Positions 29,956 to 52,300 of a DNA stretch of 64,000 bases are shown in pieces. The notes beneath the pieces were generated by a model. It was not told where the DNA came from, searched no databases, and worked only from the letters and a program-made list of their open reading frames with translations. Location of the stretch: the NCBI RefSeq assembly GCF_019320115.1, contig NC_089589.1, positions 19,159,641 through 19,223,640 of the forward strand, written 5' to 3'. This stretch comes from Miscanthus floridulus. Lineage: Eukaryota > Streptophyta > Magnoliopsida > Poales > Poaceae. Each line of letters begins with the position of its first letter. The stretch's first letter is position 1. The translations under genes were made by a program, and so were the position numbers.

Positions 29956-30363
29956 TAACAAAATAGTCATGATCTGTATAATTAATTATTTTTTTAGCCT
30001 ATTTAATTCTCTATGTATAGTATTGGACAATGGCTGAGCACCAACTTTCGTCTCGGCCGGGTTGAGGAAACGAGGCCATCAGGACTGGACGCAGAGAGAG
30101 AAATGCATTTTTATTTCTGGAGCCCACCGTACTTTTTGTGCTGGAGTCTACAACTTTGCTCTCTCTCGTCACGAACCGGTGCACGACTGTGGATGCAGAG
30201 AGAGCTAGTAGTTAATAAATCATCAGCTACCACATTTTATACGAAAATAAACTACTACTTTCCTCGCTGAAGTGGAAGAACAGTAGCAACCATCTCTGGG
30301 AGAAGAAGCAAGCAACCATCTCTGGGAGAAGAAGCTATGATGTCTTGTTCTTGACACCAGCTG

Positions 30364-30457
30364 GTGAGTCGATGTTCTTCAATATTGCTTTCCCTCCTCC
30401 CATATGGTTGACTGCTTGTCTTTGTATTAGATACATAACAGATGTGAATATATGCAG
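30364..30457 (+). other. Possible leader intron of the NLR gene
   Basis: A donor (CAGCTG then GTGAGTCG) and an acceptor (ATATGCAG) bracket about 94 bp just before the NLR coding start. Inferred from consensus only. If it is not spliced, the frame also opens with an upstream in-frame ATG at 30475. Confidence 0.35.
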
Positions 30458-30510
30458 CTAAACTGTTCGCATCCGTGGGTGAGTTTACTGGAGTTCCCGG
30501 ATCCGGAGGC

Positions 30511-33500
30511 ATGGAGTCGCCGATCAGTGCTTCGCTGGGGGCCATGGGACCCCTTCTCCGGAAGCTCGACATGCTGCTTTTGGGGCCTTCCGAAGGCCTT
30601 CTTCAGCTTCACAAGGGGGCCAAGCGCTGGACGCACCTCCTCAAAGACGACCTTGAAGAAATCACCTCGTACCTTCAGGACCTGTCAGAGGTGGAGGATC
30701 CTCCGCTGACAGCAAAGTGCTGGATGAAAGAGGTGCGTGAGCTGTCCTATGACATCGAGAATTACATCGACAGCTTTGTGTTGCCTGGCCATGTTGCGAA
30801 CATCAAGACTAGATCTGGCCGCCGCCGCCGCTGCTGCTGCCGTTGCCGCCGAATCAGAGTTAGGCATATTAAGGTCACTCGCCTTCTGGAGACGAACAAG
30901 AAGCTGAATCGACGGAAACGGGTCGCTGCCAGGATCTCAGATTTCAGAATCGATGCCCGAGAGGCTCTTGAACGGCACAAGAGGTATGAGCTCCATTGCT
31001 GCGCCAGTATCAGGCGCGGATTATTGCCCGCTGCTGGGAGGCTTCCAACGACATGTGAAGAGGGTGCCGGTATAATCATTGACGACCGGATGAGGAAATT
31101 TATGGATTCGATGGCTGACGATAGGGATCCGCAGCTCAAGGTGGTCTCTGTTGTCGGATCTGAAGGAATCGGCAAGACTACACTTGTTAAAGTGCTGTAC
31201 CACAAACTCAAAGGACAATTTGATTGTCAAGCCTTCATCCGCTTGACCCGGAAACCTGATATCAAGACAGTTCTGCGTGACATCCTCACACAAGTCCAGC
31301 AGCAGCCTCATAACCATTGCGAGGATTCTGACCTTCTTGGCAAAATCAGGGAGCATCTACAGTATAAAAGGTACTGTGCCCTTTTCCCCATGTTTATCGT
31401 CATTCACAATCATCAATCATATAATTGTGTGGCCGAAACATATGGTTCATCTATTGGTAATGGGTTTTGCTCACAAGACATGTGAGACATAAGTAACATC
31501 ATGTGTGGGGTACGGGTAAACATGCTTTAACCATTGGATGTGTTATGTGTGTGTGTGTACTATTTGTGTCAAGAAGAGATAGTGATAGGGAATTCCCACA
31601 TGAATATTTTTCCACTGTCCGGGGCCTCGTGTCATTTTCTCCCCAACCACATCACCGCAGCCCTTGACATAGATATATCTAATATATTTTTCTTAAAGGA
31701 ACATGATTTCATTGCAATAATAATCAAAATGGCATATATAGCTAAATCATGCTAACTCATCTAGTAAAAAACAGTCGACCCTTGCTCCAACTCCACCATA
31801 CCTATGCATCTTCATATGCATTTATCATTATTTATTAACACGGCATCATATTTCATGGCCAATGTTTTAAAATAAAATGATAATTGCGGAACAGGCCTTA
31901 CAATAGGAAGTCAAAGCATGCATATTACTAAAAACGTAACATTTGTTGTGATACTGGCGCCTAACGCGGAAGTGTTTGCTTGGATCTACCTAAGGCGATA
32001 CTCACGGGAGATCACACAACATACCTGAGACTCGAGATATGTTAACGAGGTTCAGCTGAAGTCTACGTCCTCAGGGCATGCTTATAGACGCTCCTCCCTG
32101 AAACTACGACACCAGCCACCCGGGTGTCGGCCAAAGCTGCCAACACCCCCCACGAGCCTACCGCTATGTGGTTGTGTTGTTTTTCTCTTACATAGGTTAC
32201 AAGTGCAGCACCCTCTTTATAGACAGGCTGGATTATAAGAGCCCAACATCTAGATCTACTTAACCCTCCACTACTATTTACAACACAAGTTCAATGTAAC
32301 CCTTTTAGTAGAGATTAAATATTCGACACACTTCTAACAACATCCATTCTTGGTGAAGAAATAATCCATGAACATCACCTGACATGTTGTGCTTATGTCC
32401 TCCCCGTGTTCCTCTTTTTCCAATATCTCCCTGTGTTCTTTCCATGCTTGTGCTTGAAAACAATGAGTGGCTTATTCATATATTCTTGGCATGCAGGTAT
32501 TTGATTGTAATTGATGATTTATGGTCAGCATCAATATGGGATGTAATCAGTTATGCTTTCCCGGGAGGCAAAATGTGCAGCAGAATAATAACAAGTACTC
32601 AGATTGAAGATGTAGCATTAGCATGCTGTTATTATCACTCAGAATATGTGTTCAAAATGAGACCTCTGGATGAAGATCTCTCAAGAGAACTATTTTTCAA
32701 CAGCCTTTTTCGCCCTGAAAATGATTTTCCCAAAGATGTTTTGAATAAAATTGTTAAAATATGCGGTGGGTTGCCACTAGCAACGACCATTATTGCTAGG
32801 CTTTTAGCAACCCATCCTGTGATATTAATGGAGCAATGGACATACATATATGATTCACTAAGCTCCAAGTTGAGGACAAGTAGTTCTGCTTCAGAAGGAA
32901 TGAAACTAGTAGTAAACTTCAGCTACAATAATCTTACTTGCCATTTGAAGACGTGCTTACTCTATCTTAGTATGTATCCAGAGGGGTGCACAGTATGTAA
33001 GGATGATTTGGTGAAGCAGTGGGTGTCTGAAGGTTTTATCGATGGATCAGAAGGGCGAGAGGTGGAGACTGCAGAAAGCTATTTCCATGAACTTATTGGT
33101 AGAAGATTCCTACAACCTGAACGTATCAAATACACCGGTGAGGTAGCGTCCTGTTCAGTTCACGAAGTGGTACGTGATCTTATTGCACAGAAGTCTTCAG
33201 AAGAGAACTTTGTTGTGGTACTTGATCGTTATCGGAGGAATGTATCACTTTCTGAAAATGTCCATCGACTATCTCTCCACTTTCCTTACACAAAGTATGC
33301 AATGACAAACATCAGATCATCACAAATTCGGTCACTTACTTGTTTTGGATTATCTAAATGTATGCCTTCTATTAAGGAGTTTAAGCTTCTCCGTGTTCTA
33401 AACCTCAATTTATCTGGTCATGACGACAATGATGATGGCATAATAGATCTCACTGGGATTTCTGACCTATTGCGATTGAGATATTTAAAGGTCGCAAGTG

Positions 33501-34606
33501 ATGTCTGTGTAGAACTACCAAAGCATATGGGAAGGTTACGGTATTTGGAAACCCTGGATATCAGTAAGAAAGTCACAGATGTTGCATCGGATATTATCCA
33601 TCTACCATGCCTGTTGCACCTCCATCTGCCTTTGGAGACAAATCTGATGGATTGGCTAGACATGACTGGACCAGCTGCCAGTGTGTGGAGCCTTGGCAAG
33701 CTGTCGAACCTGCGGTATCTTTATCTCACCTATTCTATACCGGTTCCTGACCATCTGCAGAGAAACATGGAAGCTCTGGGATCTTTATTTAGAGGACACG
33801 GAAGCCTGAAAACTCTAGCCTTCATTCTTAGCTCTGTTCATAAAAATGCTGTGGCTCACAGCCCTTCAGAAGCAACCATTACCTGGGACTGGGATGACTT
33901 CCCACCTCCCCTCCTTGAGAGGTTTGAATGGTTGCTGCACAGCTGCAGCTTTTCCAGAGTTCCCAAGTGGATTGGAGAGCTTGGCAACCTCTGCATTTTA
34001 AAGATTTCAGTAAAGGAACTGATGAGGGATGGTGTTAACATTCTAGGAGAATTGCCTGCTCTCACAACTCTGTCTCTCTATGTGAAGATAGCACCCGTTA
34101 AGAGGATCATCTTCGACAAGGCAGGATTCTCAGTTCTCAAGTACTTCAAGTTCATGTGCAGTATAGTACCTTGGCTGAAATTTGAGGCGGAGGCAATGCC
34201 TAACCTCCAGAAGCTCAAGCTAGGCTTCAGTGCTCACAAGGTGGGTCAGCAAAGCACTATACCTATCAGCATCGAGCACTTGCCTAGTCTTAAAGAGATC
34301 TCTGCAAAAGTTGGCGATGCAAGTTCCGATGCAGAGTCTGCCTTGATGGCTGTGGTCAGCAATCATCCAAGAAATCCTAGAATCAGAATGCAATTGGTGG
34401 ATTGGAACTCTTATGGTCACGGAGTTTGGTACACAGTCAGCAAACAGGAAAACCCCCTCACTCTAGAAGAAGATAATATCCCTGACCCTGAGGAAGGCCT
34501 GGATGATCACTTTTTTCCTCAATACAAGGACTCAAGGGACGATCAGAATAAAGAAGCTTATGTCAGGTACGAATTTTCCTTGTTATGCAAATGGCAAATT
34601 TCATAA
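30511..34606 (+). CDS. CC-NB-LRR immune receptor (NLR), two coding exons
   Basis: Exons 30511-31370 and 32497-34606. The GT-AG junction (AAAAG/GTACTG, ATGCAG/GTATTT) joins in phase to give KRYLIVIDDLW. About 989 residues if the stop at 34604-34606 is used. The start at 30511 (MESPISASLGAMGPLLRKLD) fits the Rx-type coiled-coil N-terminus better than the ATG 12 codons upstream. Visible in order: an EDVID-like stretch (RELSYDIENYIDSF), P-loop GSEGIGKTT, kinase-2 YLIVIDDLW, RNBS-B (SRIITST), GLPL (CGGLPLATT), RNBS-D (CLLYLSMYPEG), VHE in place of MHD, then degenerate leucine-rich repeats to about 34400. NLRs detect pathogen effectors in the cytosol. A donor (GTCAG/GTACGA) at 34566/34567, shortly before the stop, could splice on to downstream exons (see findings). 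Upstream coding frames show no disruption. Confidence 0.92.
31371..32496 (+). other. NLR intron 1
   Basis: Splits the NB-ARC domain between RNBS-A and kinase-2, a position used in several grass NLRs. It contains an unclassified repeat-like block (about 31950-32340). No coding signal. Confidence 0.85.
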
Positions 34607-36164
34607 AATTAGACCTGCCTGCACATGCGCATACCATTGCCAAGGAACTAGTCGCTTACTTTACCCAATTTGTAAGGAACTGCATTTCTGTCAACCACGG
34701 TTAGAGCAACTCCAGCAATGGCCCTCAAAAGGGCCCCTACTTTTCATTTAGGGCTCTTGCTACTTTTGAGGGCTCTGTTTTCTAGGTTGCACTCCAGCAG
34801 TGGCTTTCAAAATACAGCCCTCAAATCCATTCCAACGGAGACTCCCTGAGACCCACTTGTCACTTGTCATTCACTTCCCCAGCCGAAACACTATTAATTG
34901 GAGATAAGTTGGTTAGGTTGGTTTGCGCAAGGTTTTTATGGTCATGGGTTGGAGTCCAACCAATTGCTGCGTGTATTTTGCATGAAAAAACGCACAATCT
35001 GCCAAGTATATAAGTTAAAAAGCCACACATTTTTTTGTCAAATAAAAGTTCAAAAACATGAAAATGTATTTTGAGATGGTCAGCCTAATGATCTGCTTCT
35101 AGAAATGCATTTCTAGGGACATGCCATCCAATGGACTGCCCATAAAATTCATTTTCACGGGCAGTTGCATGGCAGTCCCTAAAAATATGTTTTTACTACA
35201 AATACTTGCTTAGAAGATGCAAAAATCGCCTCTAAAAATTAATTTTGGGTGCATCTAGAAATAGTTTTTTTGTATTGACTAAAATGTCGATATAACATGC
35301 TTGACCCACCATGGTGAACTTAAGAAAGTCCCAAGAGGGAGGTTGAATTGGGTTCTATAATATTAAAGCGGCAACTTTTAGTCTATTCATTCAAAAACTA
35401 ACGCGTCCCTTGAACATTAAAAGGCCCTAGAACTAAACAAGGCACACTTAAAATAGTCTTCAAGGCCACTACACTAAGTCAAGTCCTTAAACTCAAACAA
35501 ACTAACAAAAAAGTCCTTAATGTGAAAAGGAAACCTATCAACTAGGAGCATACTACCACAAGAACAATCCTAGATGTCAAACAAGTACCCCTTGCATACA
35601 AAAGCACAACACAAGATCAAATATATGAAGGAATGCAAGAAGTAAAGAGTGGATAATAGACAACCGGATTTTTTTCCCCGTGCAATCAAGGTGTTAGAAC
35701 ACCCCCTAACCTACGTTGCTGCAACTACTCAGAGTAGTCTTGAGTCACCAGGACTCAAGATCCACTAAGAGTATCTGTTTTCCATCTCCAGAGTGGCGAA
35801 TCTCAAACCACGTACAAATCACCAAGACTTGTAGGCTCTAATAAGAACACCAAGATCTCTTGAATCCATCACCAAGCACCAACACCATCTAGGTGCTCCA
35901 AATCATTAGAAGTAACAATAATGAGAAGCCCTCACTAGCTCACTTGACCAAACAAGACCGAGAGCTCTATGATGCACACTTGTCACTCTAATTTCTCTCT
36001 TGACTTTCCAATGTGTAAGGGCTTGTGAGCACCCAAGAGAGGGGTGAATTGAATGTCTAATCCTATGACTCAAATTAAAACTACCACTAGAAAAAACCAT
36101 AAATTACTCTAGCAAGATGTACACTTAAGGTTTTTCTAGTGTGCTCTGACTTATCCTTAACCCA

Positions 36165-36300
36165 AAAGAGTTTAGCAACCTAGGGCCAATCCTATCAACT
36201 AGCCTATAGCTAATCTAGAAAGGTAAATGTCAAAATCCAAAAGAGTTTAGCAACCAAGGGCCAATCCTATCAACTAACCTATAGCTAATCTAGGAAGGTA
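36165..36300 (+). repeat. Two-copy local tandem repeat
   Basis: Two near-identical units of about 75 bp: 'aaaagagtttagcaacc', then 'agggccaatcctatcaact', then 'cctatagctaatctag', then 'aaggtaa'. Part of an unclassified repeat. Confidence 0.75.
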
Positions 36301-37077
36301 ATGCTCACACAAGCAAAACACAAGAGGAAGCAACAAACAAATAAGTAAAAAGCTAAGGATAGATAGGGCAAACTCCCGGAGATGCGATGATATATCCCGT
36401 GGTATTGGTGAATTTAATGCTCTAGTGGGAATATTCCCCTAGGCGCTTTTGTTGATCTAATTGTCCGGCTCATTGTTTTCTTATAGCCAGACTATCCGGT
36501 CCGTTGATCAGCATAGTGCTTTGGCACTGAGGGTGGTTGGACTCCACACACGTTTGTCCAATGCATGTAAATCACTTCGCCGGACACCATTCGCTGTGTG
36601 CTTCTTCTACGCACTAAATCATTTTTGCTTTGTTTCTTCATTGGTCTTTGTGCCACTTCTTTTCTTGCATCCCTAGGGCCTATCTAACACATAACACACA
36701 TGTTAGTCCTAGGCTTGTGTTGTCATCTCAATCACCAAAACTAAAAGATGATCGTGGGCACATAACCCTTACACAATGATGTGGCTATCTTTCCAAGGTG
36801 TTAAGAGACCTCAAATGAATGCCCTTGAGGTGTTTTTAAAGTCATAAACTTCATGGAAGTTGGTTAGGAGCTGCTGCCAAAGTACAGGAAAAAGGGAATA
36901 AAAAATTGAGTAAACTTGACAATCTGGTCAACACCGCCAGACCGTCCGACCAATGCTTTTGCACAGTGCCTGGCAATGGTCATGTGATGTCACTGATTGT
37001 CAGGCGCGCACTGAGTTTAACCGCCTGACTGTCTAGTCCATTCTTTTGCACAATACCTTCCATACTGTTCCAAAACC

Positions 37078-37170
37078 CCAAAGCTCTACGGGCTGTTCAC
37101 TCAAAGTCTGGTGCACACAGTGGTAAAAAACCTCAAGCTCTACGGGCTGTTCGCTCAAAGTCTGGTGCAC
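37078..37170 (+). repeat. Two-copy local tandem repeat at the LTR insertion site
   Basis: The words 'gctctacgggctgttc' and 'ctcaaagtctggtgcac' occur twice about 60 bp apart. The solo LTR inserted at the end of the second unit. Confidence 0.7.
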
Positions 37171-40141
37171 TGTAGCACCCGGTTTTAAGAACAAAACCAG
37201 ATACGCACCATATGTGAGCCCAGAAAGTCAAATCTCACATATAGCTACAAATAAGGGTAATATCAAAAGACAATGCTCAATATATAATGTACTTAATATA
37301 AAGGATATAACCTTAGACAGCAAACAACGGAAAGACAACTCCGATCTTCGGGTGAAGACTTCAATCCACAGGGACAACTGACTAGTTGATCATAAGCCTA
37401 ACTCCTCCATACTAGCAATTTGGTACCCATCCAGGATTTTTTCAAAGATTTAAAAAGTAAAGTAAGCATAAGTACATGTCGTACTCAACAAATATAATAT
37501 GGGGCTCATGAGGCTCAAAAGGCTGACACTGGTTAACTGCGATTAGCTTTTAATGAGTCGTGATTTTAGCAATAGGGTGGCAACAAGTTTATCCACAAGC
37601 CCACATAAATACATGATCAGGTAAACATGAATAATGAATAGCATAAACAATAATCATTAGTGAACATCTTTATCATCAGTATCATCAGTGTCCATCATCT
37701 ATTTCGTAAGGGTTCCAAGGCCACTCGTGACCGTGAGCACGGCTGTTATAACAGTTTTACACTCTGCAGAGGTTGTACACTTTCACTGAGTCGTGATTTA
37801 CCCTTTTGCCCGAGGTCGCGAGCCTCTTAACCCACTACCAAGGAAGGTCGACAGGGTTTACAATGAAGCCTTTCAAAAGTTCGTCTAACAAGTTAGGGCC
37901 GCTAGGTTTCCCCATCAATAAGCATGAACTCCCCTCCAAGGAGTGACTGACAAAAGGTCAAGAAACCAAAATGCACTCAACCTGGCAGGCAAAGGTCATA
38001 CCTGTCAGAGTCCCTCTTGCGCCATAAAGGTAACCACTAACATGCTAGAAAAGGTCCTCATACTTGACTAAAGCCAGAGCCATGTAGCCCTCACAGTTGT
38101 ACTGTAAGTCCCCGATGATCACTTACAGATAAGTCCTTAGGGAGGAATCTAGAGCACCATAAAATAGCCCAATGCTCTAGCCCCCTTGTTCCATGTTGCT
38201 AAAAAACATCTTTTAGTGTTTATTGCATATACCATTAGTCAAGTTACAAGATTATGGTTTTAGTTGAGCACTAGCATCATACTACCCAATGCAATACCCC
38301 AAAGGAATCCAAGATATCAAATAGCTTGGAAAATTACTACGGTTGTCAAGGTAGACACATGCATATGATTAAAATGATATTAAGGTGAATAGGACAACAA
38401 GGATGATCCCATGCTATACTTGTCTTAAACTCAGATCCTTCTTCTAGTCCAAACCTTCAATGAATTGTTTTTGGATTCACCGCGTATAGCTCACCGACTG
38501 GACATGATCATAAAACACCACAGAAACATCCATGCTATACACGAAGCAAACAATAGAAATAAATTAGAACAATACATCAAACATAATAAACAATAGGTAA
38601 AAATGTTTTAAAGATGTTCTACACGTTACTACGAACACACAGACGCGAAAAGCACTCTAATCGGAGCTATAACGAAAAAGTTATGAATTAAACAAGATTT
38701 TCTTTAATAAAATAATAGATTAAATCTAACCTCGAATTTTAAAAGTTGAAAATATGTTTAACAGTAGGATGAACACGTAGATTACTCAATTACAAATCTA
38801 ACGCAACTTAAATGGATCAAAACGGAGTTAAAACGAAGATTTTATAGCCTAAATAAGACTAGTGGCAAAACTGTAAATAGATAAAAGCGTATTTTGGATC
38901 TACCCAAAGAAACTACGTTTTCAAAAGAAAACGTATTTTGAATCTAACAGAGGGATTTTACGCTTTCTGAAAGAGAAAACGTATTCTGAATCTACTAGAA
39001 AGAAACTGTGCTTTCGGAATAGGAAAACGTATTCTGGAAGTGCGCCATGGAGTGCGGGTTATATTACGCGAAACTGCAGGGGCTCTTTTGCAAATAAACC
39101 CGGCGAAGGGGTACGGGCGATCTTGGACCGTTGGATTGAATCTGGACGGTCTAGATTAGAAAGAAGGGGGAGAGAGAGTCACCGGCGGGAGAAGAAAACC
39201 GGCGCGATGGAGCTCCATTACCTGCGGCGAGAAGCTTCCCGGAGCGCTCGGTTTGGGCCCTAGAGGCCACGGTTTGATGAGCCGAGAGCACAGGGAACAA
39301 GAGGAGAAGGCGGTGAACTCACCTAGGGCCTTCTTGCGGTCGACGGCGGGTCTATGGCGTCGGGCGGCGACGGCGACGGCGAGAGGAGAAAAATCTAATT
39401 TACTGCACGAGGGATTTTCCAAATGAGGGCCTTCTCTTACGGTAGTTTTGGTGTGCTTTGCCCAAGGGGTTGGTACATATTTATAGGGAGAAAAACTCCC
39501 CACATCTACATCATCTAGCAATATGGTACTAATTGATGTTGCACCCTCCACATTTACTAATGGACCTAAATAATCATTAAAGTCTATTAGTAAATAAATG
39601 CATGGGTCTTTGAGATTTATTAGGATTATTGCACATGGGCTTTGAGAGTTGGTTGAAAAATGGGATATATTATTTATTTTCGGAATTAATTAATTTCACG
39701 AATAAAATAATTCTAGAAAAGTCCAGAATTGATATTTAAGCCACTAAAATTACTCCGAGACCTCCGAAAATTTGGGAAAAAATCCCAGAGACACTTTGGA
39801 ACATGATGAACCCAAATAAAGTATTTGGAGCTTATGAAAAGATTGTTGGGAACTTGGAACATAAAGATTAAGGTGTAGGAGGTAGGAATTAAATTCCAGA
39901 AAGAAGCTGGAAAATTCCTAGAGATAGATATTCATCTCCTAAACGTATTTAAAAAAAAAACACATTTTGCACATAGAAACACAAAGTGCGACCGGCATGA
40001 ATGCAACAAACACGTTTCTACCTTAAGATAAATTTTAATCTAATGAAAATTTATTATTTCCCCATGTTTTCATGAGCATAAAAATACAAAATTAAATCAT
40101 TTTAGCTCTATTTCAAGAGGAGCAAATTTTAGGGTGTTACA
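37171..40141 (-). mobile_element. Solo LTR (about 3.0 kb), inverted
   Basis: Ends TGTAGCACCC and GGGTGTTACA, flanked by a perfect 5 bp duplication TGCAC (37166-37170 and 40142-40146). Read on the minus strand it starts TGTAACACCCTAAAATTTGC, matching the LTRs at 1 and 24017, and shares the 'gtgagcacgg' region with the first. No internal region, hence a solo LTR. A minus-strand GC-rich segment near 39150-39550 gives an accidental ORF. Confidence 0.9.
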
Positions 40142-40922
40142 TGCACACAGTGCCTTGACCACTGCACCATCACTCTAGTGCTCTTGAACAGTGCCTTGAA
40201 CTGTGTCTTATCTGGACTTAGCTTCTATTTGTTCGGCTATTAGATTCCTTCCACTGCCAGACTATCCAATCCATGTTTTTGAACAGTCCCACCCACGAAG
40301 GGCTTGGCTGGACACCAAATGTGTTTGTCTGGTGCTGTCATTAATTTTCTATACTTGCGGAGTATTTGGCCTATGCATTTTTCTTGTTTTGACTCCAATT
40401 TCTTGGTCCTAACTCAAAATTGACTAAAACTTGTTTTCCTGGTTCCTTTCTAGATCCCAAGTGTACGTCACTAAGCTCATGAAACTCATAGGTCAAGCTA
40501 CTAGCTCTCATTCCTCCCTTTATAGTACACTCGAAGATTCCAAACTAGCAAAATCTATTTACCCCTTGTTCTTAGCCTTCAATCCAAGTTCTTGATCACC
40601 TTGAAATAAAAATTGGGGGTCACATTCCTCTTGTGCTCTTGTTACCCATCTTTGAAATTGTTAAAACAAATCTTAGTCACAATAGCACGCAGTTTTCATT
40701 AAGCACCAATACATACCTGTTACCTAGGGGCTTAGATCCTTCCAGACTTTATTGTTCATTGATACATTGTGCAAAAGTAAGTATAGTCTCTTCATTCAGA
40801 AAGGGTGAAGTTAGTTCCTTGGTAATTTTGCACATTCATCAAATTTTCTGAGAAACATTTTGCATGCTAAACCTTGTGACGTACTTCAGAACCCATATAT
40901 CTTATCTTCAAACTGACACTAG

Positions 40923-42551
40923 GCATGATGACGCCAAGAAGCATCGGAAGGAGAACAGCACTGAAAATTTGGAAAACCTGGACACCTCTACTTCACTATC
41001 CGTTATAGAAGGATCCGTACAGAACAATTGGGATTTTGAGAATTTTACTGCTTCATCATCAAATGCTTCTACAGCGACATATGCCTCTCCACCTCCAAAC
41101 ATTACCAATAAAGGCAAGTCCTATGCGTCTTAATGCTACTTCCTTATGTAATGTTTTAAACGTTGGTGCGAGTACAGCTGTACACGTTCTACTTGGGTAA
41201 ACATGCTATACTGTTAGATTTGAAGAGTTTGATCCATTATCAATCACTGTATTGGCAACAAAAGTAGATCATTTTTCTACCTAACAATAATAAGAAAGCC
41301 TTTTAGCTCCAAGCAACTTTTTGCTACCGACAAAAGAAATTAAGAATTGATGTTATTTTAATTCCAGATGGAAGCTCTGGTCAAGAAAAGAACCATGCCA
41401 CATCACAGATACCTGCTTTGGCGTTGGAGTATTTGGCACCATACTCACAGCTGGAACTGAACCAATCAATTGTGTGCACCCTTCTCTATGGACTCTGTTT
41501 CTTGTCTGTTTATGTTTCCATTTTCTGAGAACTTGTAAGGCAACGTGTTTCTTGTCTCATGTTTATATATCTTTCCTTGTGTAGGCTCCTGGAGCACATC
41601 AGTACCCAGATCCTTACTATGCAGGCATGGTTACTACCTATGGAAGTCAAGCTGTGGTACTATTTTATGCTGATTTAAGCATTAGAAATCATGGGGCCCA
41701 TTTTATGCAAATTTTAATTTTAATAGCGCTAGTCTAAATAACAGCACTAGGTACTATGCTTTACTCAGGCAAAATATGAAATCTGAGATAAAGAATTGAA
41801 GACAAGTGGAGAGTGGAGATGTATTGAACAGTCGTCAGTTCTTAAATATGAGCATCCCTATTAAAATTACAGAACATAATCCAGAAAATGGAAGCAGAAT
41901 TGAATTGAATATACTTGGGTTCATTTGGTAAAAAATTGCTAACCTATGGTAAGCAGAAACGTTTGGTTGTGTGCATGTGGGTGTGCGTGTGTAGGGTTGG
42001 TGTGTATGTGCACATGAAACGACACTACAGCTTGTCCCATTAGAGGTATCAAAAGAAGAAGAAATGTTCGGTTGTCATAGCTATGGAAGATGGTAGTGCT
42101 CAGATGTCTTTGGATCAAGTACAACACTCTGAATAGACGATTTCATCTTCAGTTATACAATTTATGTAATTATGTATATATCAACACCTCTATGTTCAAA
42201 GCTCGATCGAACTGCCTGAATTAACTTGAAAAAACAAAGAGCACTGCTACACGTACAACCATTTGAGTACAACTCAAGATTCCGACTGTTAAAATCACGT
42301 GGATGGGAACAGTTTAGATGCATGGTTGTACTTTAGCTGTAGTCAAATTTCCCTTCCTCTTGTGTTATAGTTATAAGTGAAGTATATAACTTGACAGCTT
42401 GCTAAGAACTTGCATTTGATATTGCAGCCATATCTTCATGAGTCTCGTCATCTTCACGCGATGAGGAGGGCAAAAGGAACTGGGGGACGCTTCCTAAACA
42501 CAAAGAAAAGTGACAATGGCACTCCCAATAGTAAAGCTGAACCTAAGAAAG
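40923..42551 (+). CDS. NF-YA-derived exons lacking the subunit-interaction exon
   Basis: Four exons: 40923-41113, 41368-41471, 41585-41656, 42428-42551. Exon 1 ([20 protein letters not shown] and onward) is not recognised as NF-YA and could be linker. Exons 2 and 3 match the NF-YA region before the core ([48 protein letters not shown]). Exon 4 has the A2 DNA-binding segment ([31 protein letters not shown]). The exon for the A1 helix (VNAKQYHGILRRRQ type), which contacts NF-YB/NF-YC, is absent between 41657 and 42427, yet exons 3 and 4 still join in phase 0. Exon 1 ends at a GC donor (AAAG/GCAAGT). Exon 4 has a donor at 42552 joining in phase to the SGT1 exon. NF-YA normally binds CCAAT boxes in the NF-Y trimer; without A1 that seems impossible. 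No start codon is certain. Confidence 0.7.
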
Positions 42552-42559
42552 GTAGTACA

Positions 42560-42725
42560 GGGCGTACCCAGTGCAGAGAGCTCCCGCTCTGTGCGGGGTC
42601 TGGGGAAGGGTGTCAGTGGCAAGCCTTACTCTCGCCTATGCAATGCGAGGAGACCGCGACTCGAACCCGGGACCTTCCGGTCACAGGCGGTAAGACTCTA
42701 CCGCTTGCACCAGGCCCGCCCTTCT
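42560..42725 (-). mobile_element. SINE of the grass Au type
   Basis: On the minus strand a tRNA-derived head has an A box TGGTGCAAGCGG (42701-42712) and a B box GGTTCGAGTC (42658-42667), then a body with 'gcgagagtaaggcttgcc' and an end near 'tgcactgggtacgccc'. Sequence and length match Au SINEs of grasses. It lies in the intron directly after the last NF-YA codons, 8 bp past the donor. A target duplication is not clear. Confidence 0.88.
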
Positions 42726-42944
42726 CAAGTAACCGTATAGTGAAGCTACTAATTTGAGTGTAGTGGATTTGTGCACACGTTAGTTTTGTAGTGTGTCCAT
42801 TTTGTGGTTCATCTGTACATGATCAACAGTTTGAGATGAACAGATTTCTGTAGATAATATTAGCCAATTAATAATCTGGATCATTTCTTTCTTGAACTGT
42901 CTTGCATTTCTTAGAGACATTTTATTTGTATATATGTTCTGCAG

Positions 42945-43368
42945 CTGAAACAGCCCCAAGACCTTCATACCCATCTTCAAAGCCAAAAAAAGACTGGGAT
43001 AAACTGGAAGCTGAGGTAAAAAAGGAGGTATGATCAAGATTCCCACTTATATATGTACCACTCTTATTGCTGCCACTTAGGTTTCTCGAATATGTATGGG
43101 GTTGCATGATTTGTGTCTGCATCAGGAGAACGAAGAAAAACTTGATGGCGATGCTGCATTGAACAAATTCTTCCGTGACATCTACAAGGATGCTGATGAA
43201 GATATGCGGAGGGCCATGATGAAGTCATTCGTACGTGATCTTTGGCCCAGCTAATACTGGTTTTGGAACCAACTATATTTTATGTATACTCACGTATCCT
43301 GCAGGTGGAATCTAATGGCACTGTTCTCTCAACCAATTGGAAAGATGTTGGATCAAAGAAGGTGGCCG
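42945..43368 (+). CDS. SGT1-derived SGS domain exons
   Basis: Exons 42945-43027, 43126-43230 and the first part of 43305-43823. They encode the end of SGT1: [76 protein letters not shown]. This is nearly the whole SGS domain of a grass SGT1, an HSP90 co-chaperone needed for NLR stability. The TPR and CS (HSP90-binding) domains are absent, and the last 15 or so residues (normally EGSPPDGMELKKWEY) are replaced by BEL1-like sequence from about 43363. Introns have GT-AG ends with phases 0 and 0, and the first exon needs one upstream base, which the NF-YA donor supplies. Retained introns argue for capture at DNA level. No start codon of its own. Confidence 0.85.
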
Positions 43369-46300
43369 CTGTGGACATGTCGTCGCCGCCGCCGCAGGCA
43401 CAGACTTTCGGCGGCGCCGCGGCGGCTGGGGTCAGCGCCGTGCTCAGCCTGTCGTCCCGAGAGGCAGCGCCGCCGCCGGTCATGGTGGCCGCGGTGGCCG
43501 GCCCTGGCTGCACCGACGAGGGCAAGTACCTGGGCGTGGCGGCCACGTCGCAGGGGCAGATGGTGATGAGCTCCAAGTACCTCAAGGCCGCGCAGGAGCT
43601 GCTCGACGAGGTGGTGAGCGTCAGCAAGGGCGTCGAGGACGCCAACAAGACGACCAAGAGCCTGGCGGCGGTGAAGGAGGAGGAGGACTCGGAGGGCGTG
43701 TCCAGTGGCGGCACCGATGACGGTTCCGGCGCAAAGAGCGGTGGCGGCGCGGCGGAGATGTCCACCGCGGAGCGGCATGAGCTGCAGATGAAGAAGAGCA
43801 AGCTTATCAACATGCTTGACGAGGTCAGTAGTATATATAAATAGCACAGTTTATGGCTTCAATTCATACTACTAAGATTAATTTCACAAGTTATTTTCCA
43901 TTTGATGTATTTCTCTCGATCGTGTTCAAAAATAAGATATTTTTAAAAAACCTGTTTTTAATTGCTGTTGATGAGGCCTTGAGGGTCCTTGATTTTTCAT
44001 GCAAGTTTTTAGTTATGTTGCCTCAAATTTGACAGGGAGAGATATTTTGTCTTGTTTTTGCTGTTTGCTTGCTTCTACAGTCTAAGACAGTGTCACAGTG
44101 TTATGTATTAAAAGGCTAGGAACCATTTGCCTTTCGGTTATCTTTGTTATGCTGTTTCTTTTTCTGAAAGATGAGTGACACAAGTTGTTTGGAACAGTGC
44201 ATGGCTTTAATTTTAATTTGATGGATATATATCATCAGACTTTTCCCCCACTTTAAATCCTTCTCTTAATCAAGCATCCATGCTGTATCAACTTGCTGTA
44301 GTAGTATCAATACCAATTATTGTTCCCCTACTTAATTCTGTGATTTCCACCTCGCAGAAAACACTAGTTATTATGTGGTTTAATTATTACCAGCTTATTA
44401 CATACTTAGAGGATTCTTATTGGTACACCTTATCACCACTTAGGTTCTGTTCTTTTTTTCCTTTTGAAATGTCTTAATTTCATTTTAAGCGTATGGGGTA
44501 ACAACTAAGAGGTTCGGTTCTAATAGTAAAATGAAAGCAATAATATATATATTTTTTTGTGTGTGTGGAAGAGAATGAAAACAATATAATCCAAGACAAA
44601 GTGCCATATAGAAGGTATAGAGTATATATATGAACATATTTAACTAATAACATAACAAGTGGCAATGAAAACCATATCCTCTACTATCATGTACAACGAA
44701 ATATATGGCAAGTGGAGGTCTTTCAGCAAACAAAATAATCCTTAAGAGATGCCCTGTTCGCTTGGCTGATAAGCCATGGCTGAAAGTACTGTTGGCTGAT
44801 TTGTTGTGAGAGAAAAATACGGTTCGTTGGCTGAAAAAGTACGGCTTATAGCGCAAATAAATTAAATTCAACTACTTCCATTCTTTTGGTTGTACTTTGT
44901 CCATGCCAGTACAAACAAGCTTCAATTCGCTGCTTCATCAGATGTGTCTCTTTTTGTCTGCAATAGCCTGCTTCATGAGTGTACACTGTACTGCCAGCTG
45001 AATCTGAATGCGAGTACTACCAAATATCAATTTTTATTATTTTTATTAAAAGAAAAACATAAATTTCACTATCTCGTTAATTTTCCCCATGTCTTGTATA
45101 TATACATCATTTCTGTGCATGAGTAGACATATCATATCAGGAGGCGTGTAGCAGTTGCGATTGCACCGATCAGCATTGATAGAGTTTGTTGACGAACAGT
45201 TGGTTGGATGGGATCATCACTAACGAGCTATACTTATAATCAGCTAGTAGGCCAGTAGCTTGCTAGTAGTAGCAGTAGCACGCCCTGATTAATGAATTAG
45301 AGTGGTCAATGGCTGACTGACACTGTTGTGTGTGCATGGTGGCGATCGATGTCGACAACAATCGACAATGGCAGGTGGAGCAGCGGTACCGGCAGTACCA
45401 CGGGCAGATGCAGGCGGTGTCGTCGTCGTTCGAGGCGACGGCGGGCGCCGGGTCGGCGCGGACGTACACGGCGCTGGCGCTGCGCACCATCTCGCGGCAG
45501 TTCCGGTGCCTGCGGGACGCGATCGCGGCGCAGGTGCGCGTGGCGAGCCGGGCGCTGGGCGAGGATGCTGACGCCGCCGGGGGCCGCACCGTCGGGTCCC
45601 GCCTCCGCTACATCGACCACCAGCTCCGGCAGCAGCACGCGCTGCAGCAGCTCGGCATGATGCAGGGCGACGCCTGGCGGCCCCAGCGTGGCCTCCCCGA
45701 GCGCTCCGTCTCCATCCTCCGCGCCTGGCTCTTCGAGCACTTCCTGCATCCGTGAGTCCCATCTCATCCTCCTCACTGCACAAGCTGCAGTATAGCTGCC
45801 TAGCTAGGTAGCTCATCATGAGCCCTTGTACTCTTCGACCTACTCCATTGCTCTTTGTTTGGCCCTTTGCTTGCTTGCTTTCGTGCCCATGGCGCCATGC
45901 ATGCAGCCTCACACCTCATCGTGTCCGCCTCTAATTGGTCCGCATGGATCCTGTGTCGTCATGCAGATACCCCAAGGATTCGGACAAGATCATGCTCGCC
46001 AAGCAAACCGGGCTCACCAGGAGTCAGGTCAGTAAATAAAACTGATGAATAGCATTTCTTTCTTCTCCTGTTTATCATCAATTTGACTGTTTTACTGGCT
46101 GTGTGTAAATTAACTTTCAAAAAAAAATTGTTCTTGATTTCTGTTAGGTGTCGAACTGGTTCATCAACGCAAGGGTGCGGCTGTGGAAGCCCATGGCGGA
46201 GGAGATGTACCTGGAGGAGACCAAGGACCAGGACGGTGGCGGCGGCGGCGGCGGCAATGACGAGGGCAAGTCAGGTGGCGGCGGGAGCAAGAGCGGCGAC

Positions 46301-46969
46301 ACTGTCGACGGCGTCACGCTGAGGGCGGACGCCATGTCCAAGTCCGCGGTGCGCGTGGGAGGCGGCGGGGCGGCGGAGAGCGCGTCCACCAACAAGGGCA
46401 TCCATGGCTCCTCCCTGCTCGAGCTCGGCGGCGGCGGCGACCACCAGCAGTCTCACGCGGGGTTCTACGACGACGATGAAGACGACGGCGACGACGCGAT
46501 GGGGCGGAGGCTCAAGAAGGCGCGCGGGGACGAGCCGGCGCTGGCGTTCCACCACGTGCACGACATGGCCGCGCTGCACGCGCAGGCCATGGCGGCCGTG
46601 AGGCAGCAGCAACGGGAGCTGTTCATGAAGAGCATGGTGAGCAGCGGTGCTGGCGCGAGGGACCACCACCACCACCACCACCAGGACGGCGGCGGCGGGT
46701 ACTCGCTGTTCGCGCCGGGGCCGTACGGGCAGTTCGCCACGGAGCCCGCCGCCTTCGCGTTCGCCGGGAACGGCGGGGTGTCGCTGACGTTCGGCCTCCC
46801 GCACGGCGCTGGAGGCAGCGCCGCCGAGCAGACCGCGTCGTTCCTCATGGGCAGCACCACGGCCGGCGCCGACAGCGGCAGCCACGGCGGCGCCAGCGGC
46901 GGCTACGACATAAACATGCAGAGCACTGAGTCGGTGGCGGCGCAGCTCATGAGGGACTTCGTGGCCTAG
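43305..46969 (+). CDS. BEL1-like homeodomain (TALE) protein, N-terminus replaced
   Basis: Exons 43305-43823 (BEL1 part from about 43366), 45375-45751, 45967-46027, 46148-46969; stop TAG at 46967-46969. Phases match throughout. Visible: VLSLSS motif, SKY box ([20 protein letters not shown]), BELL domain ([39 protein letters not shown]), TALE homeodomain with the PYP insertion ([15 protein letters not shown]) and helix 3 ([15 protein letters not shown]), and a C-terminal ZIBEL-like [13 protein letters not shown]1-like proteins pair with KNOX proteins to control meristem and organ development in the nucleus. The normal first exon half (about 100-150 residues) is missing and the frame comes straight from SGT1 without a stop. 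The first in-frame ATG in the BEL1 part is at 43377. A likely poly(A) signal AATAAA is near 47057. Confidence 0.88.
43824..45374 (+). other. Large intron of the BEL1-like gene
   Basis: Donor GAG/GTCAGT, acceptor ATGGCAG. It carries a probable hAT-type MITE at about 44748-44860 ('gccctgttcgcttggctgataagcc' and 'ggctgaaaaagtacggcttata' as inverted ends). Otherwise no feature. A long first intron is usual for this family. Confidence 0.75.
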
Positions 46970-47545
46970 CTCGTAGGACACGTAGTATAGCAGTCGTCCG
47001 TCCACGCAAATTAATCAATCTCTCCATCGATTAATTAATTTAGAGCTTGTATAGAAATAAAGGGTTGTTCAAGCCTAAATATGCTTGCATGTATAAAGCA
47101 GTTAAGCTTGGACTATAGGTTTTGGGAATGTAAAGATGGGATAAATATCATGGGGGCGATGTATATAGGTATAGGATGATAGGTAACTAGTTGATACCCA
47201 AACATTGTACAAGATTTTATATGTAGATCATAGGGATTGGGGGGTATACAGTAAAGTATGTGAAGGGGTATATTGGAACTGGACTTGGAACTTGGAAGTG
47301 TATGTGGTAGAAGCTAGCGAACTAGTATTATCTGCAGTAATTCAGTATTTGTTTTGCTTACTGTAAACAGATCACATTCCAACTCATTGGCAGCACCACC
47401 ATGTGCTGCTGGATGACATTGTGGATAACCATGCTCCAGTAGAATCAAGTGATCTACCTCTGAATGTTGGCAGGCAGCAGCAGCGAGTAACAACTAACAA
47501 CACAATAACCTGATCAGAGGAATGACTCAGAATCTGCTCATATAG
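46970..47545. other. 3' UTR and downstream DNA of the BEL1-like gene
   Basis: Contains the likely poly(A) signal 'gaaataaaggg' near 47055. No further gene signal. Confidence 0.5.
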
Positions 47546-47935
47546 TTTTTTTTTTGTTTTTTGTTTTTTTTTTTTTGGTGAAAGATCCGGGATGATTACT
47601 TGCTTATTATTAATAAGATGGGAGAAGAGTTACATGCGCAAGGTGCGCCTACAAGCACCAGAACCAGCAGACTGCTGGGTCTGGATGATGACTAAAGTGG
47701 ATTACTCATTTGTGTACATTGCAACTAGGAAAACAAAAGCTTCTTTCTCTACCGATTTCCCCAAGTAAGCCTCATCGATGATTTCAGAGAAATTAACCGG
47801 AGTTTTTTCGTTTCTCTTGAAGATTTTGTCTTTTCTTTGCTTCCAAATGGACCAGACTGTTAAGATTGCCAAGGAGTGTCCTATAATAGCGCCTTCTCCT
47901 GATATGTTCAGCAGCCATTCAGCACTTTCAGCTCA
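47546..47935 (-). mobile_element. 5'-truncated LINE 3' end
   Basis: A T-rich run at 47546-47577 is the poly(A) tail of a minus-strand element. Upstream on that strand the sequence reads SIWKQRKDKIFKRNEK and SEIIDEAYLGKSVEKEAF, ending VAMYTNE and a stop, the usual C-terminus of plant LINE ORF2. Unlike the LINE at 7.4-20.4 kb it has no obvious stops in this stretch, so it is younger. Confidence 0.75.
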
Positions 47936-48225
47936 GATAGTTTTTCACTAGTCATGCTAACTGAGTCTGATGTGAGGTGACTTATAACAAAGGTGGTATT
48001 CCATCTTTTTGTTGTGTGAAATAAACCAACCCAAGAATTTCCATTCTAAATAACAGTACAAAAAATCCACTAATAGGCGACCAAACATGGCTAACTAACA
48101 AACAAACTAAGATCATACAAACAAAACATTGCCTAATGATCACCCTTGCGTTGTTTTCCTTCTTCCATTTCTGCGATCTGGTCTCATGAAGGATGCCACA
48201 TTTGCACAGATTCAGATGTCTCGGG

Positions 48226-49269
48226 CATAGTTTTTACGGCGGCATGGCGAGACGCGGCGACCCACCACCTTCACACCTTTACAGCGTCTATGGCGCGCGG
48301 CGTGGCAACGCCATATACACATCGGCGTGGCGAATACATACATTATAGTCTAGGATGTTAGGAAATTATATTGACAAATGGTAATGCAAATGTAGCTTAA
48401 AAGGTATAGTCTACAATATTAGCAAATCAAAATAGCAATGTAAATGTAGCACAAAAGACATAGAACACAAATGTAGAAAAGGAAAACTGGACTCAAATCA
48501 TCACTGTTCCTTCAGCCCGACCAAGAAATCGGCCCGGCCTGCCTTGCACGCGCGCGCGCGGCTCCCTCCCAGGCCGCAACCTAGGCCTGGGCCGGGAAAG
48601 CGGCTCGCCTGCTCGTGCCCGCCTGGGCCGGTCTCCGGCCCGTGGATTCTGCGCTGTCGATGCAGATCGGACGGCCGAGCAAGCGCTTTGGAGGATCAAA
48701 AACGTCGACACAGCGCCGGCTCCCAAAACCCTAGCTCACTTCTCTTCGCCCTTTCTCTCTCAGTCCAGCGAGCGACAAAGCGCAGCCGAGAGCTCACAGT
48801 AGACGCGACGCGGGGATGGCGGCTCCGCCGTGGCACCCCTCGCCGGCGCACGCGTGCGGCCGGAGCCGCGCGCGGCACCGTCGAGCGGCACCACGGTGGT
48901 GCCCTTTGGCCCGAGCCTGAGGCGGAGATCCAGGCGGGCGCTGAAGCTTGAGGGCCGGCGCCTCGGGAGATCCAGGCGGCCGACGGCGGCGGCGGCTCGG
49001 AGGGCTGCTTGCGGTTGCGTCTCGGGCTCGGTCTCGGAGGGCTCCAATCGGCCACTCGGCCTATACAGGTACCCTCACGGCCTCACCCTCACCCTCACCG
49101 TCTATTGCGCCCGCCACAGGACGCCAAATCGGCGCCACGGGGACGCCACGGCGCTATGGCGGACGCCATACACGCCGGAGCCGTGGCGTCGCCGTGGCGA
49201 GAGCCAGAAAAACGCCACGGCGATATGGCGACGATATGGCGTCGGTATAACGACGCCTTAACAACTATG
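48226..49269. mobile_element. Non-autonomous hAT element (1044 bp)
   Basis: Inverted termini CATAGTTTTTACGGCG and, inverted from the right end, CATAGTTGTTAAGGCG. Perfect 8 bp duplication GTCTCGGG at 48218-48225 and 49270-49277. Subterminal 'ggcgtggcg / cgccacggc' words repeat at both ends. The interior (about 48500-49080) is GC-rich and includes 'aaaaccctag' followed by TC-rich sequence that looks like a captured promoter or 5' leader. No transposase. It lies about 110 bp beyond the stop codon of the LHW-like gene, so probably in or near its 3' UTR. Confidence 0.88.
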
Positions 49270-49380: not shown

Positions 49381-52300
49381 TCATTGGATGCGGCCTGTTG
49401 CTGGGATGACAGGTTGGCACACCAAACCAAGAGGCATGTTCATGTTGTTTGCGTTCTCTGCCACTCCACTGCCGTCACAATTTGGCTCCAATAAGCGCAC
49501 TAGTGACAGAAAGATTTCCATTCTGGTTACGTCCCGGTTTGCCTGCACCAACAGCCTCAATCAGTAAGGAAATTGACAAATCAGCAGTAGTATTCATCAA
49601 CATCATCTCATTACTTTGGATTTCCATTCGGGTTACTGTTTATTAATTTCGATTTTGAACCGAAAGAATCCTAATTATCAAATTTAGCTGTATTACCTCA
49701 ACAGTAAATCGTGCCCAGATTTTACTTTTGCGCATTTCCATCACACCCCTCAAGATAGTCAATCCAAGTCCTTTGATGAAATCAGCTATCTCCAAGATGA
49801 TTCCTCTATCCTCGCAAAGCATCTGCAGAGGCAACCAAGTCATCACAATTACATGTGGTCTAGGAGAAACATTGTACCATAAGCAATAAGTAGTAGAATA
49901 GTCATTACCTCCACAAGCATCTGACGAGGTCGGTCAAGATCCTCAACAATGATTGGACATGTCATAGACTGAGAGCCGACATCGAAAGCCCAGGTTGCTC
50001 CACCTTCGAAGTAGTCTTTCCAAAGGGGGCCATTTTCACTACCAAGTATCTGGTTCAAGAAGACTCTTTGTATTAAGGACATTTTCCAACTATGGAGGAT
50101 TAAGTAAAATATTTTGAGATTCCCCCTCGTCAGGTAAGCTATATCATCACTATCTTATCTTAGACATATCATAACCCAAAAGGCCAAAACTAAGACTGTA
50201 AAGAATGTGCATACCTTAGACTCAGTAGAGTCCTTGAGCTTGTCTGCATTCTTCGTCACACTTTGTAAGAAAAGCATGTGCTTAACTGTCTTCTCCAACA
50301 AACCATCAATGCTACACTATTGACATAAATTTGCAATTGTTAGTACACTATCGCCGATAGTTTGTAGATAAGATATATGATTCAAACTCTCAAATTATCA
50401 TCAGAGAATTCATGCAAGAGCATACCTTTGCTCCATTCGGTACAAACTCACGCAGCTCTCTAATACGGTCCTGTATCAGTTGCCGGTCCTTAGGTCGTGG
50501 CTTAGGACTTTCTCCTTCTCGAGATCTCTTGCGATTTGCCTTGCTTAGCGTATCAAGACCTTTGCTATTAGAAGCCGAAGCACTTTCACATTTCATGTTC
50601 TGACCGCTCTCAATCCAAAGACGTATCTGAGATTTGTGCATTCCATTATTTTGGGAAAGACAACCCTCCTCAGATTTATCAAAGAGACATGGCTGTTTAA
50701 CAAACTGTGCCAATTCGTGCTTAATTAGCATGGAAGGAACGCCGGAGGACTCACATTTCTTCAAGTCTGCTGAACCAAGATGAGATGTGCTAGGAACATC
50801 CGTCAATGCAGTCTTGCAAGAAGCACTATCATCAGTACACTGTTTACCACTTGGATTGACATTTGAGATGACAGCATCCAATAGCTGATCAGTATCAGTT
50901 AGTGATAAGATACCAGAATAGTGAAGCTCATTGTCTAGTGAACTGAAAAGGGGTGAGCTAGTGAGATATATTGATGATTCAGGGACATCTCTATCTGAAT
51001 TCTGAGACTCTGTACCACTCCAGGTGACCAAATCAGCACCAACATTGTGGGAGAACTGATGAAATTCAGAACCAAACATATCAAACAAGTCATTATCTGC
51101 AGCAAGCTCCACGAGCAACGAGGAAGCTCTCTCAATGGGCATTCCTGTCTCACATCCATCCCTGTTCTTCATTCTCTGCGTGCTGACATTAGCACTTGGA
51201 TCACTAAATCTATTAATCTTTTGGTCTTGTCGGACATTGTTTGACCTACTCAATAGATTCTCTTGGTCCATGTTGAAACTGTTAGAAACCTGACCATCAG
51301 ATTCAGAAGTTCGAACTGAAGGAGTTTGAAATGGCCTACTTTCAGGGTTCTCCATTTTCTTAGCCAATTCAGAAGATTGGGGAACCTTGAACGGAACTAG
51401 AGACTGTTTCTGCTGCAATGTTCCTGATGTGTGGTCCAATATTTGACTCGATACACTGGTAGATAAGTTGGCTCTGCTTGCTCTGGCACCTACAGGGAGA
51501 AAATCAAAATTCCCAGGACCATTTAAATCATTGGATACCACATATCTTCCATGATGCATATTCATGTTTGTATTTTCACAGACAGAAGAGTCCTGGCGCA
51601 CAAGGGATTTTAATATGATATCTCTTGCCATTGCCAAATCTGCTGATGAATGTGCATTATTATTCAACTGTAACTGCCCAATGTTGTTCATCAAGAGTGA
51701 CTGATTTTTAACTGATGTCAATCTTGGGGAGGTCAAACTTGAGTTCATACCAACACTCCGTAAATTTCTTCCAAATTGGCTCTCGCGGAAGGATGCTTGT
51801 TGTATAAACCGAAGATCAGGCTCAGCATAGACAGTGTGCTCTCTAACAGGGTGACCATTCTGTTGCACAACCTTAAGCAAAGATGCATTCAGCAATGCAT
51901 GTGGCGGTGTGCTAGTTGACACAGTTGCAGTATCAGGACGTGACTGACCATGCTGACTTGAACCAGTTCTTAGATGAAGCAGATACAGCCATGCCTGAAC
52001 GGTTGTTTAGCTGAGAACACAACTTCTTTGCAAACATCACAAAATTTGTGTTTTCCATAACCTGCCATAAATCAGCTGATTATTTCAACTTTCAAATATT
52101 TAGAGAGCAAGCAAGAAAACCCTACTACCAACCATCACAGGGAAGTTGAAACAATGATTTCGAGATCTTTTATGTTCTTCGCAACAATTTCCAGCACTAA
52201 GCACAACAAAGGATACAATGTATAGTGGGAAATTTTTATGTGCCAAGGTTTCTAGATGCTCCATCATGAATGAGGATACGAGAGATGTATGTTATGAATT

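Follow-up and report, generated by a model that had tools for sequence, protein, structure and literature searches.

The locus analysed here lies in a window of 64,000 nucleotides from Miscanthus floridulus (NC_089589.1:19,159,641-19,223,640) that contains no N; all coordinates are positions in this window and the gene is on the + strand. Reconstruction of the gene from the sequence gave 12 exons whose phases are compatible throughout and whose 5388 joined bases make 1796 codons with the final codon as the sole stop, as an initial annotation of this DNA had stated. All 11 acceptors end in AG, and 10 of the 11 donors are GT while the one at 41113 is GC. A Pfam search of the joined protein revealed, from the N- to the C-terminus (E-values in brackets), Rx_N (4e-13), NB-ARC (6e-39), WH_DRP (5e-17), LRR_14 (3e-55), CBFB_NFYA (6e-8, profile positions 33-56 of 56), SGS (8e-30, positions 1-71 of 82), POX (4e-49) and Homeobox_KN (3e-19). 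The four-part series of a nucleotide-binding leucine-rich repeat receptor (NLR), NF-YA, SGT1 and BEL1 that had been proposed is thus found in that order. The features are as follows.

30511..31370, + strand: NLR exon 1, Rx_N coiled coil and start of NB-ARC, amino acids 1-286; matches Urochloa protein P0001
32497..34566, + strand: NLR exon 2, remaining NB-ARC, winged helix and leucine-rich repeats (LRR), amino acids 287-976; if unspliced, runs to a stop at 34604-34606
40923..41113, + strand: exon 3, NLR linker between the LRR and the integrated domain, amino acids 977-1040, with the GC donor; homologous to P0001-P0004; if unspliced, runs to a stop at 41131-41133
41368..41471, + strand: exon 4, NF-YA-like N-terminal part, assigned by eye, without a separate database match
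41585..41656, + strand: exon 5, NF-YA-like part preceding the core, assigned by eye
42428..42551, + strand: exon 6, NF-YA core, second half only, which is the DNA-binding one (Pfam CBFB_NFYA 33-56/56, PDB 6r2v); alternative in-phase GT donor at 42689, read-through stop at 42755-42757
42945..43027, + strand: exon 7, where the SGS region of SGT1 begins (Pfam SGS, match to P0241)
43126..43230, + strand: exon 8, SGS domain (Pfam, P0241)
43305..43364, + strand: start of exon 9, last 20 residues of the SGS piece, corresponding to P0241 residues 248-267
43365..43823, + strand: remainder of exon 9, BEL1 sequence that begins at native residue 102 and is in frame with SGT1; match to P0121
45375..45751, + strand: exon 10, BEL1, POX region
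45967..46027, + strand: exon 11, BEL1, homeobox
46148..46969, + strand: exon 12, BEL1, remaining homeobox and C-terminus, with the stop

The order Rx_N, NB-ARC, winged helix and LRR in the Pfam results is that of a coiled-coil NLR. A protein search with the NLR-to-SGS part (best 120 of 2292 matches, 7976 candidates scored) indicated that, among the matches listed, the closest relatives with a named organism are Setaria and Urochloa proteins, 66-71% identical, represented by Setaria viridis SEVIR_5G238300 and its Urochloa orthologues (P0001-P0003). Many other listed matches are labelled RGA5-like and carry varied tails, which from their Pfam accessions we take to be CAMTA, Exo70, GRAS, B3, Myb, AP2, NAM, kinase and Kelch. 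At what we take to be the MHD position, near 33160, the window and P0005 read VHE and P0001-P0003 read VHD, and the presumed P-loop near 31160 reads GSEGIGKTT in the window versus GSGGIGKTT in P0001-P0003. A quick tree of the window protein and 27 proteins hand-picked from the 120 listed, rooted at the midpoint, grouped the window with P0005 (93% identical) and P0007 (86%), and this trio was sister to a group of six rows containing Setaria and Urochloa. The receptor is thereby placed among RGA5-labelled and integrated-domain-bearing grass NLRs, in a tree whose rows include neither RGA5 itself nor outgroup clades. Its membership in MIC1, the clade of grass NLRs with integrated domains (NLR-IDs) to which RGA5, Rpg5 and Pi-ta belong according to the accessible text of PMC5819176, is likely on sequence grounds.

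Exon 3 had been assigned to NF-YA; its homology to P0001-P0004 identifies it instead as the receptor's own linker between the LRR and the integrated domain. The match is found with 4 of the 121 proteins compared (E <=0.01), and the join 34566/40923 proposed in the initial annotation, which spans a gap of 6.4 kb, is therefore backed by four gene models of other genomes. P0005 and P0007 were discarded as support on splicing, being single-exon contig proteins that stop at exon 2 and are uninformative. Behind the same linker, three of the four linker-bearing relatives (P0001-P0003) continue into Zf_WRKY19 zinc-finger repeats, whereas the window continues into NF-YA, SGS and BEL1; since these three relatives carry WRKY19 fingers instead, the integrated tail appears to have been swapped in an RGA5-like receptor. 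A leftover of the zinc-finger tail was sought in the window and rejected, as the fingers of P0001 matched nothing there at E up to 1.

Each of the three foreign parts is incomplete. A query with the NF-YA core recovered only its second half in the window (E 5e-16; all other matches 0.16 or worse), and PDB 6r2v (NF-YA6) aligns to the window protein from its residue 36 onward. A complete NF-YA core was accordingly rejected: the NF-YA part of the initial annotation stands for the second core half, as a remnant, and the first half was not found in the window with the core query. The missing exon, with the first core helix, is presumably the one that binds NF-YB/NF-YC, and exon 6 we take to belong to the native last NF-YA exon; inspection by eye recognised no native first exon of NF-YA. 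Of the SGT1 domains TPR, CS and SGS, the SGS alone is present (profile 1-71 of 82). The SGS piece matches the SGT1 protein P0241 of Tanacetum coccineum up to 43364, and the next P0241 residues, EGTPPD, are absent here, which places the end of the piece just before EG(S/T)PPD. Against PDB its sole match was calcyclin-binding protein (E 0.014). The T of EGTPPD would correspond to T346 of Arabidopsis SGT1b. According to the accessible text of PMC7540872, T346 is a mitogen-activated protein kinase (MAPK) site within the SGS domain, and AtSGT1b loses its immune function when a stop is placed at P347.

The BEL1 part carries both POX and Homeobox_KN, as in BEL1-like proteins. Over residues 1224-1795 it shares 91.7% identity with P0121, the native Miscanthus floridulus BEL1-like homeodomain protein 1, the alignment starting at P0121 residue 102. 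The corresponding proteins of sorghum (P0122) and rice (P0140) are 88.9 and 68.8% identical over this part; unlike the window protein, all three have 101-105 extra N-terminal residues and no SGT1 part. A search of the window for P0121 residues 1-101 gave nothing better than E 1.6, and the native BEL1 start is therefore gone. SGT1 and BEL1 meet within exon 9, at 43364/43365, in frame without any splicing, which bears out their proposed fusion inside one exon. Neither stop nor frameshift occurs within the NF-YA, SGS and 572 BEL1 codons.

Splice donors were scored with a simple matrix of approximate weights, which leaves the first two intron bases unscored, so that GC carries no rarity penalty. 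By this measure the GC donor 41113 scores 8.3, the top value of the eleven donors, which 2 of the 3440 + strand GC sites reach, and it is the sole GT/GC site above zero in 41000-41137. Five GT/GC sites score >1 before the read-through stop at 42755-42757, and because four of these five candidates are in phase, including both GT sites (42551 and 42689), the join at 42551 constrains little. By chance alone three free phases would agree in 1 of 27 cases, a figure that any freedom of choice weakens further; the case is therefore carried by the homology and by the in-exon fusion. From the genomic sequence alone, we predict a single pre-mRNA covering the locus in which the GC donor 41113 joins the linker to NF-YA. 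If both unusual donors are used, foreign domains stand in the reading frame of an NLR, as integrated domains do.

Eight bases behind the exon 6 donor, at 42560-42721, a tRNA-derived element resembling a short interspersed nuclear element (SINE) lies in reverse orientation and supplies the in-phase GT donor 42689. Recognised by eye, it is presumably of the Au-SINE type; Rfam and ARAGORN reported nothing at 42560-42721, Rfam gave no match on 30000-49000 and the tRNA scan gave none in the whole window.

Comparison of substitution rates showed that the BEL1 part has 24 changes of its own versus 5 in Miscanthus P0121 with sorghum as outgroup (chi-square 12.4), and eight comparisons of its rate gave chi-square values from 7.1 to 14.3. 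In the control, the counts for sorghum versus each of the two Miscanthus proteins were 10 to 5 and 9 to 6, and the NLR exon 2 part is clock-like relative to P0005 (16 to 20 and 16 to 19). At the 269 invariant sites defined by 20 grass BEL1 orthologues, hand-picked from 120 listed, the window has 12 breaks (11 substitutions and one gap); the same leave-one-out count on the 20 orthologues gave 0 to 5 substitutions, to which gaps are added in P0123 (15), P0138 (5) and P0124 (3). The 24 changes that are private against Miscanthus, sorghum and maize all lie outside the matched homeobox, residues 1494-1533, a stretch that is conserved anyway. An acceleration of this kind fits a part that may no longer serve its original function, whether it is now bait or decaying.

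We have moderate confidence that the locus encodes an RGA5-like sensor NLR whose integrated tail was replaced by a chain of truncated NF-YA, SGS and BEL1 as bait. The NLR with several integrated domains put forward in the initial annotation remains the best-supported reading, given the RGA5-like receptor, the open fusion frame and the orthologues in which this linker leads into another integrated domain; it has to be amended in that NF-YA, SGS and BEL1 are each truncated, exon 3 is linker and two joins rest on donors resembling recruited coding sequence. Several observations weigh against it. Homology to P0001 extends past the GC donor to 41130 and is followed by the stop at 41131-41133, and since the same place reads as coding sequence in relatives, this donor must have been recruited. 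Donor 42551 is of moderate strength (2.55) with the read-through stop downstream of it, and both 41113 and 42551 sit in what looks like former coding sequence. P0004, the Setaria italica orthologue, has no recorded integrated domain, and the BEL1 acceleration fits decay equally well. MIC1 NLR-IDs are often, though not universally, paired head to head, and 121 NLR-type queries found no second NLR in the window.

The chief alternative, possible although clearly the less probable, is a receptor of 1046 residues that lacks an integrated domain and terminates after its linker, at the stop 41131-41133; the NF-YA, SGT1 and BEL1 pieces would then be untranslated rearrangement debris. The reading of relatives through the place of the GC donor, the apparent lack of an integrated domain in P0004 and the 12 of 269 grass-invariant BEL1 sites broken all fit it; against it, the NF-YA, SGS and BEL1 parts are free of stops and frameshifts, SGT1 and BEL1 are in frame and a very strong GC donor in the required phase precedes them. 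We consider it unlikely that two genes are present. One would be the NLR, with its end at 41133 or 34606; the other would encode a chimeric NF-YA/SGS/BEL1 transcription factor and be driven by a promoter lying in the intron or at least upstream of 41368. The 6.4-kb gap between 34566 and 40923 and the mutually in-frame parts of the chimera would allow this arrangement; against it, exon 3 belongs to the NLR, the first 101 BEL1 residues with the native start are missing from the window and no native first NF-YA exon was recognised by eye. It is highly improbable that the fused protein is made but that its SGS, instead of being bait, serves the LRR of the same molecule as a built-in co-chaperone surface working in cis: the SGS domain does mediate interaction with NLR LRRs and HSC70 (accessible text of PMC7540872), but the piece ends just before the presumed MAPK motif, truncation at P347 deprives AtSGT1b of its immune function, and the NF-YA and BEL1 parts would be left unexplained. 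Misassembly of unrelated pieces has the slightest chance of all, the locus being judged from assembled sequence on the one hand, and on the other the window having no N, the join 34566/40923 having homology behind it, the SGT1/BEL1 junction being in frame and the BEL1 copy carrying its own changes.

If the swapped-tail receptor is accepted, its tail would act as bait. With each truncation an activity seems to be lost (NF-YB/C binding in NF-YA, MAPK control in SGT1, the N-terminus in BEL1) and a binding surface to be kept, which is what one would predict for a decoy. Effectors directed against SGT1 (smut See1, for example), against NF-YA or against a BELL factor would bind the tail and free the NLR from its resting state, and the released NLR, with a helper NLR encoded elsewhere, would lead to cell death. 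According to the accessible text of PMC10433927, See1 prevents the phosphorylation of maize SGT1, to which it binds; the SGT1 domain bound is not stated there and the word SGS does not occur. The Ralstonia effector RipAC binds CS plus SGS of SGT1 and not CS alone, SGS alone having resisted expression (PMC7540872, accessible text). Because both effectors act on SGT1, an SGS domain on a grass sensor NLR could serve as bait. The more specific proposal that the SGS is an inactive bait by which the NLR guards the immune chaperone against effectors such as See1, alongside NF-YA and BELL baits, is doubtful. If true, a receptor with a built-in SGS would suggest that selection has acted to guard the chaperone as such, and it would provide a natural, testable bait. 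The locus would also illustrate how recruited splice donors, together with in-frame fusion to an adjacent gene, let an NLR trade a zinc-finger tail for a different one.

Like MIC1 NLR-IDs, the locus combines a CC-NB-LRR with a linker and, after it, a C-terminal tail of foreign origin; unlike them it has three foreign genes in one tail, and SGT1, homeobox and NFYA each have 0 occurrences in the accessible main text of PMC5819176. CBFB_NFYA is likewise integrated in NLRs of Brassica and Linum (Sarris et al. 2016, PMC4759884, accessible text), which are dicots, whereas here the host is a grass and only half of the core domain is present. A search with residues 978-1260 of the 1795-residue protein (candidates of ~990-3140 residues) returned four proteins, all with SGS and none with NF-YA, one of them from Acacia. 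The 240 proteins listed in the NLR-to-SGS and BEL1 searches showed no similarity to the NF-YA/SGS stretch other than to the first BEL1 residues and at chance level, and among the papers listed in searches of open-licence literature there was none on an NLR with an SGS domain or with the NF-YA/SGS/BEL1 combination. NF-YA as an NLR integrated domain is thus already known, and the NF-YA/SGS/BEL1 tail is apparently new, provided that a joint transcript is made.

In the annotated Acacia pycnantha protein K1719_008056 (P0244), CS and partial SGS are joined to NB-ARC and LRR; it differs from the window protein in that its SGT1 part is N-terminal, the NLR is that of a dicot and the gene model is unverified. 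P0244 may be an independent dicot SGT1-NLR fusion or a gene-model error. The Tanacetum protein P0241 is an annotated SGT1 (CS and SGS) that runs into an apparent copia-type retrotransposon polyprotein.

Downstream, an LHW-type bHLH gene (about 49381-54099, - strand, ends placed by eye; PF23176 in exon 50393-52006) lies tail to tail with BEL1. The rice loci LOC_Os11g06010 and LOC_Os11g06020 are, respectively, bHLH and homeobox genes (accessible text of PMC11377263 and PMC5853122), and the rice BEL1 relative in our protein search is Os11g0158600. Os11g0158600 would be LOC_Os11g06020, and LOC_Os11g06010 would be of LHW type; these consecutive rice loci suggest an old bHLH-BEL1 neighbourhood. If the equivalences hold, BEL1 is at its old site and the NLR with its NF-YA and SGT1 pieces is the newcomer. 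A copy of the NLR carrying these pieces would have landed upstream of BEL1 there, and a deletion would then have fused SGT1 to BEL1. Bailey et al. (PMC5819176, accessible text) describe the formation of new NLR-IDs through translocation of the integrated domain or of the NLR. A repeat search of 34560-43400 gave seven direct families and one palindrome, none readable as element ends, a result with which capture by a Helitron or Pack-MULE is compatible. Pfam searches of ten hand-picked open reading frames (eight flanking the gene, one in intron 2, one bHLH exon) gave matches for two. At 15308-15835, on the - strand, an open reading frame contains a SWIM zinc finger (PF04434), presumably as in MULE-type transposases.

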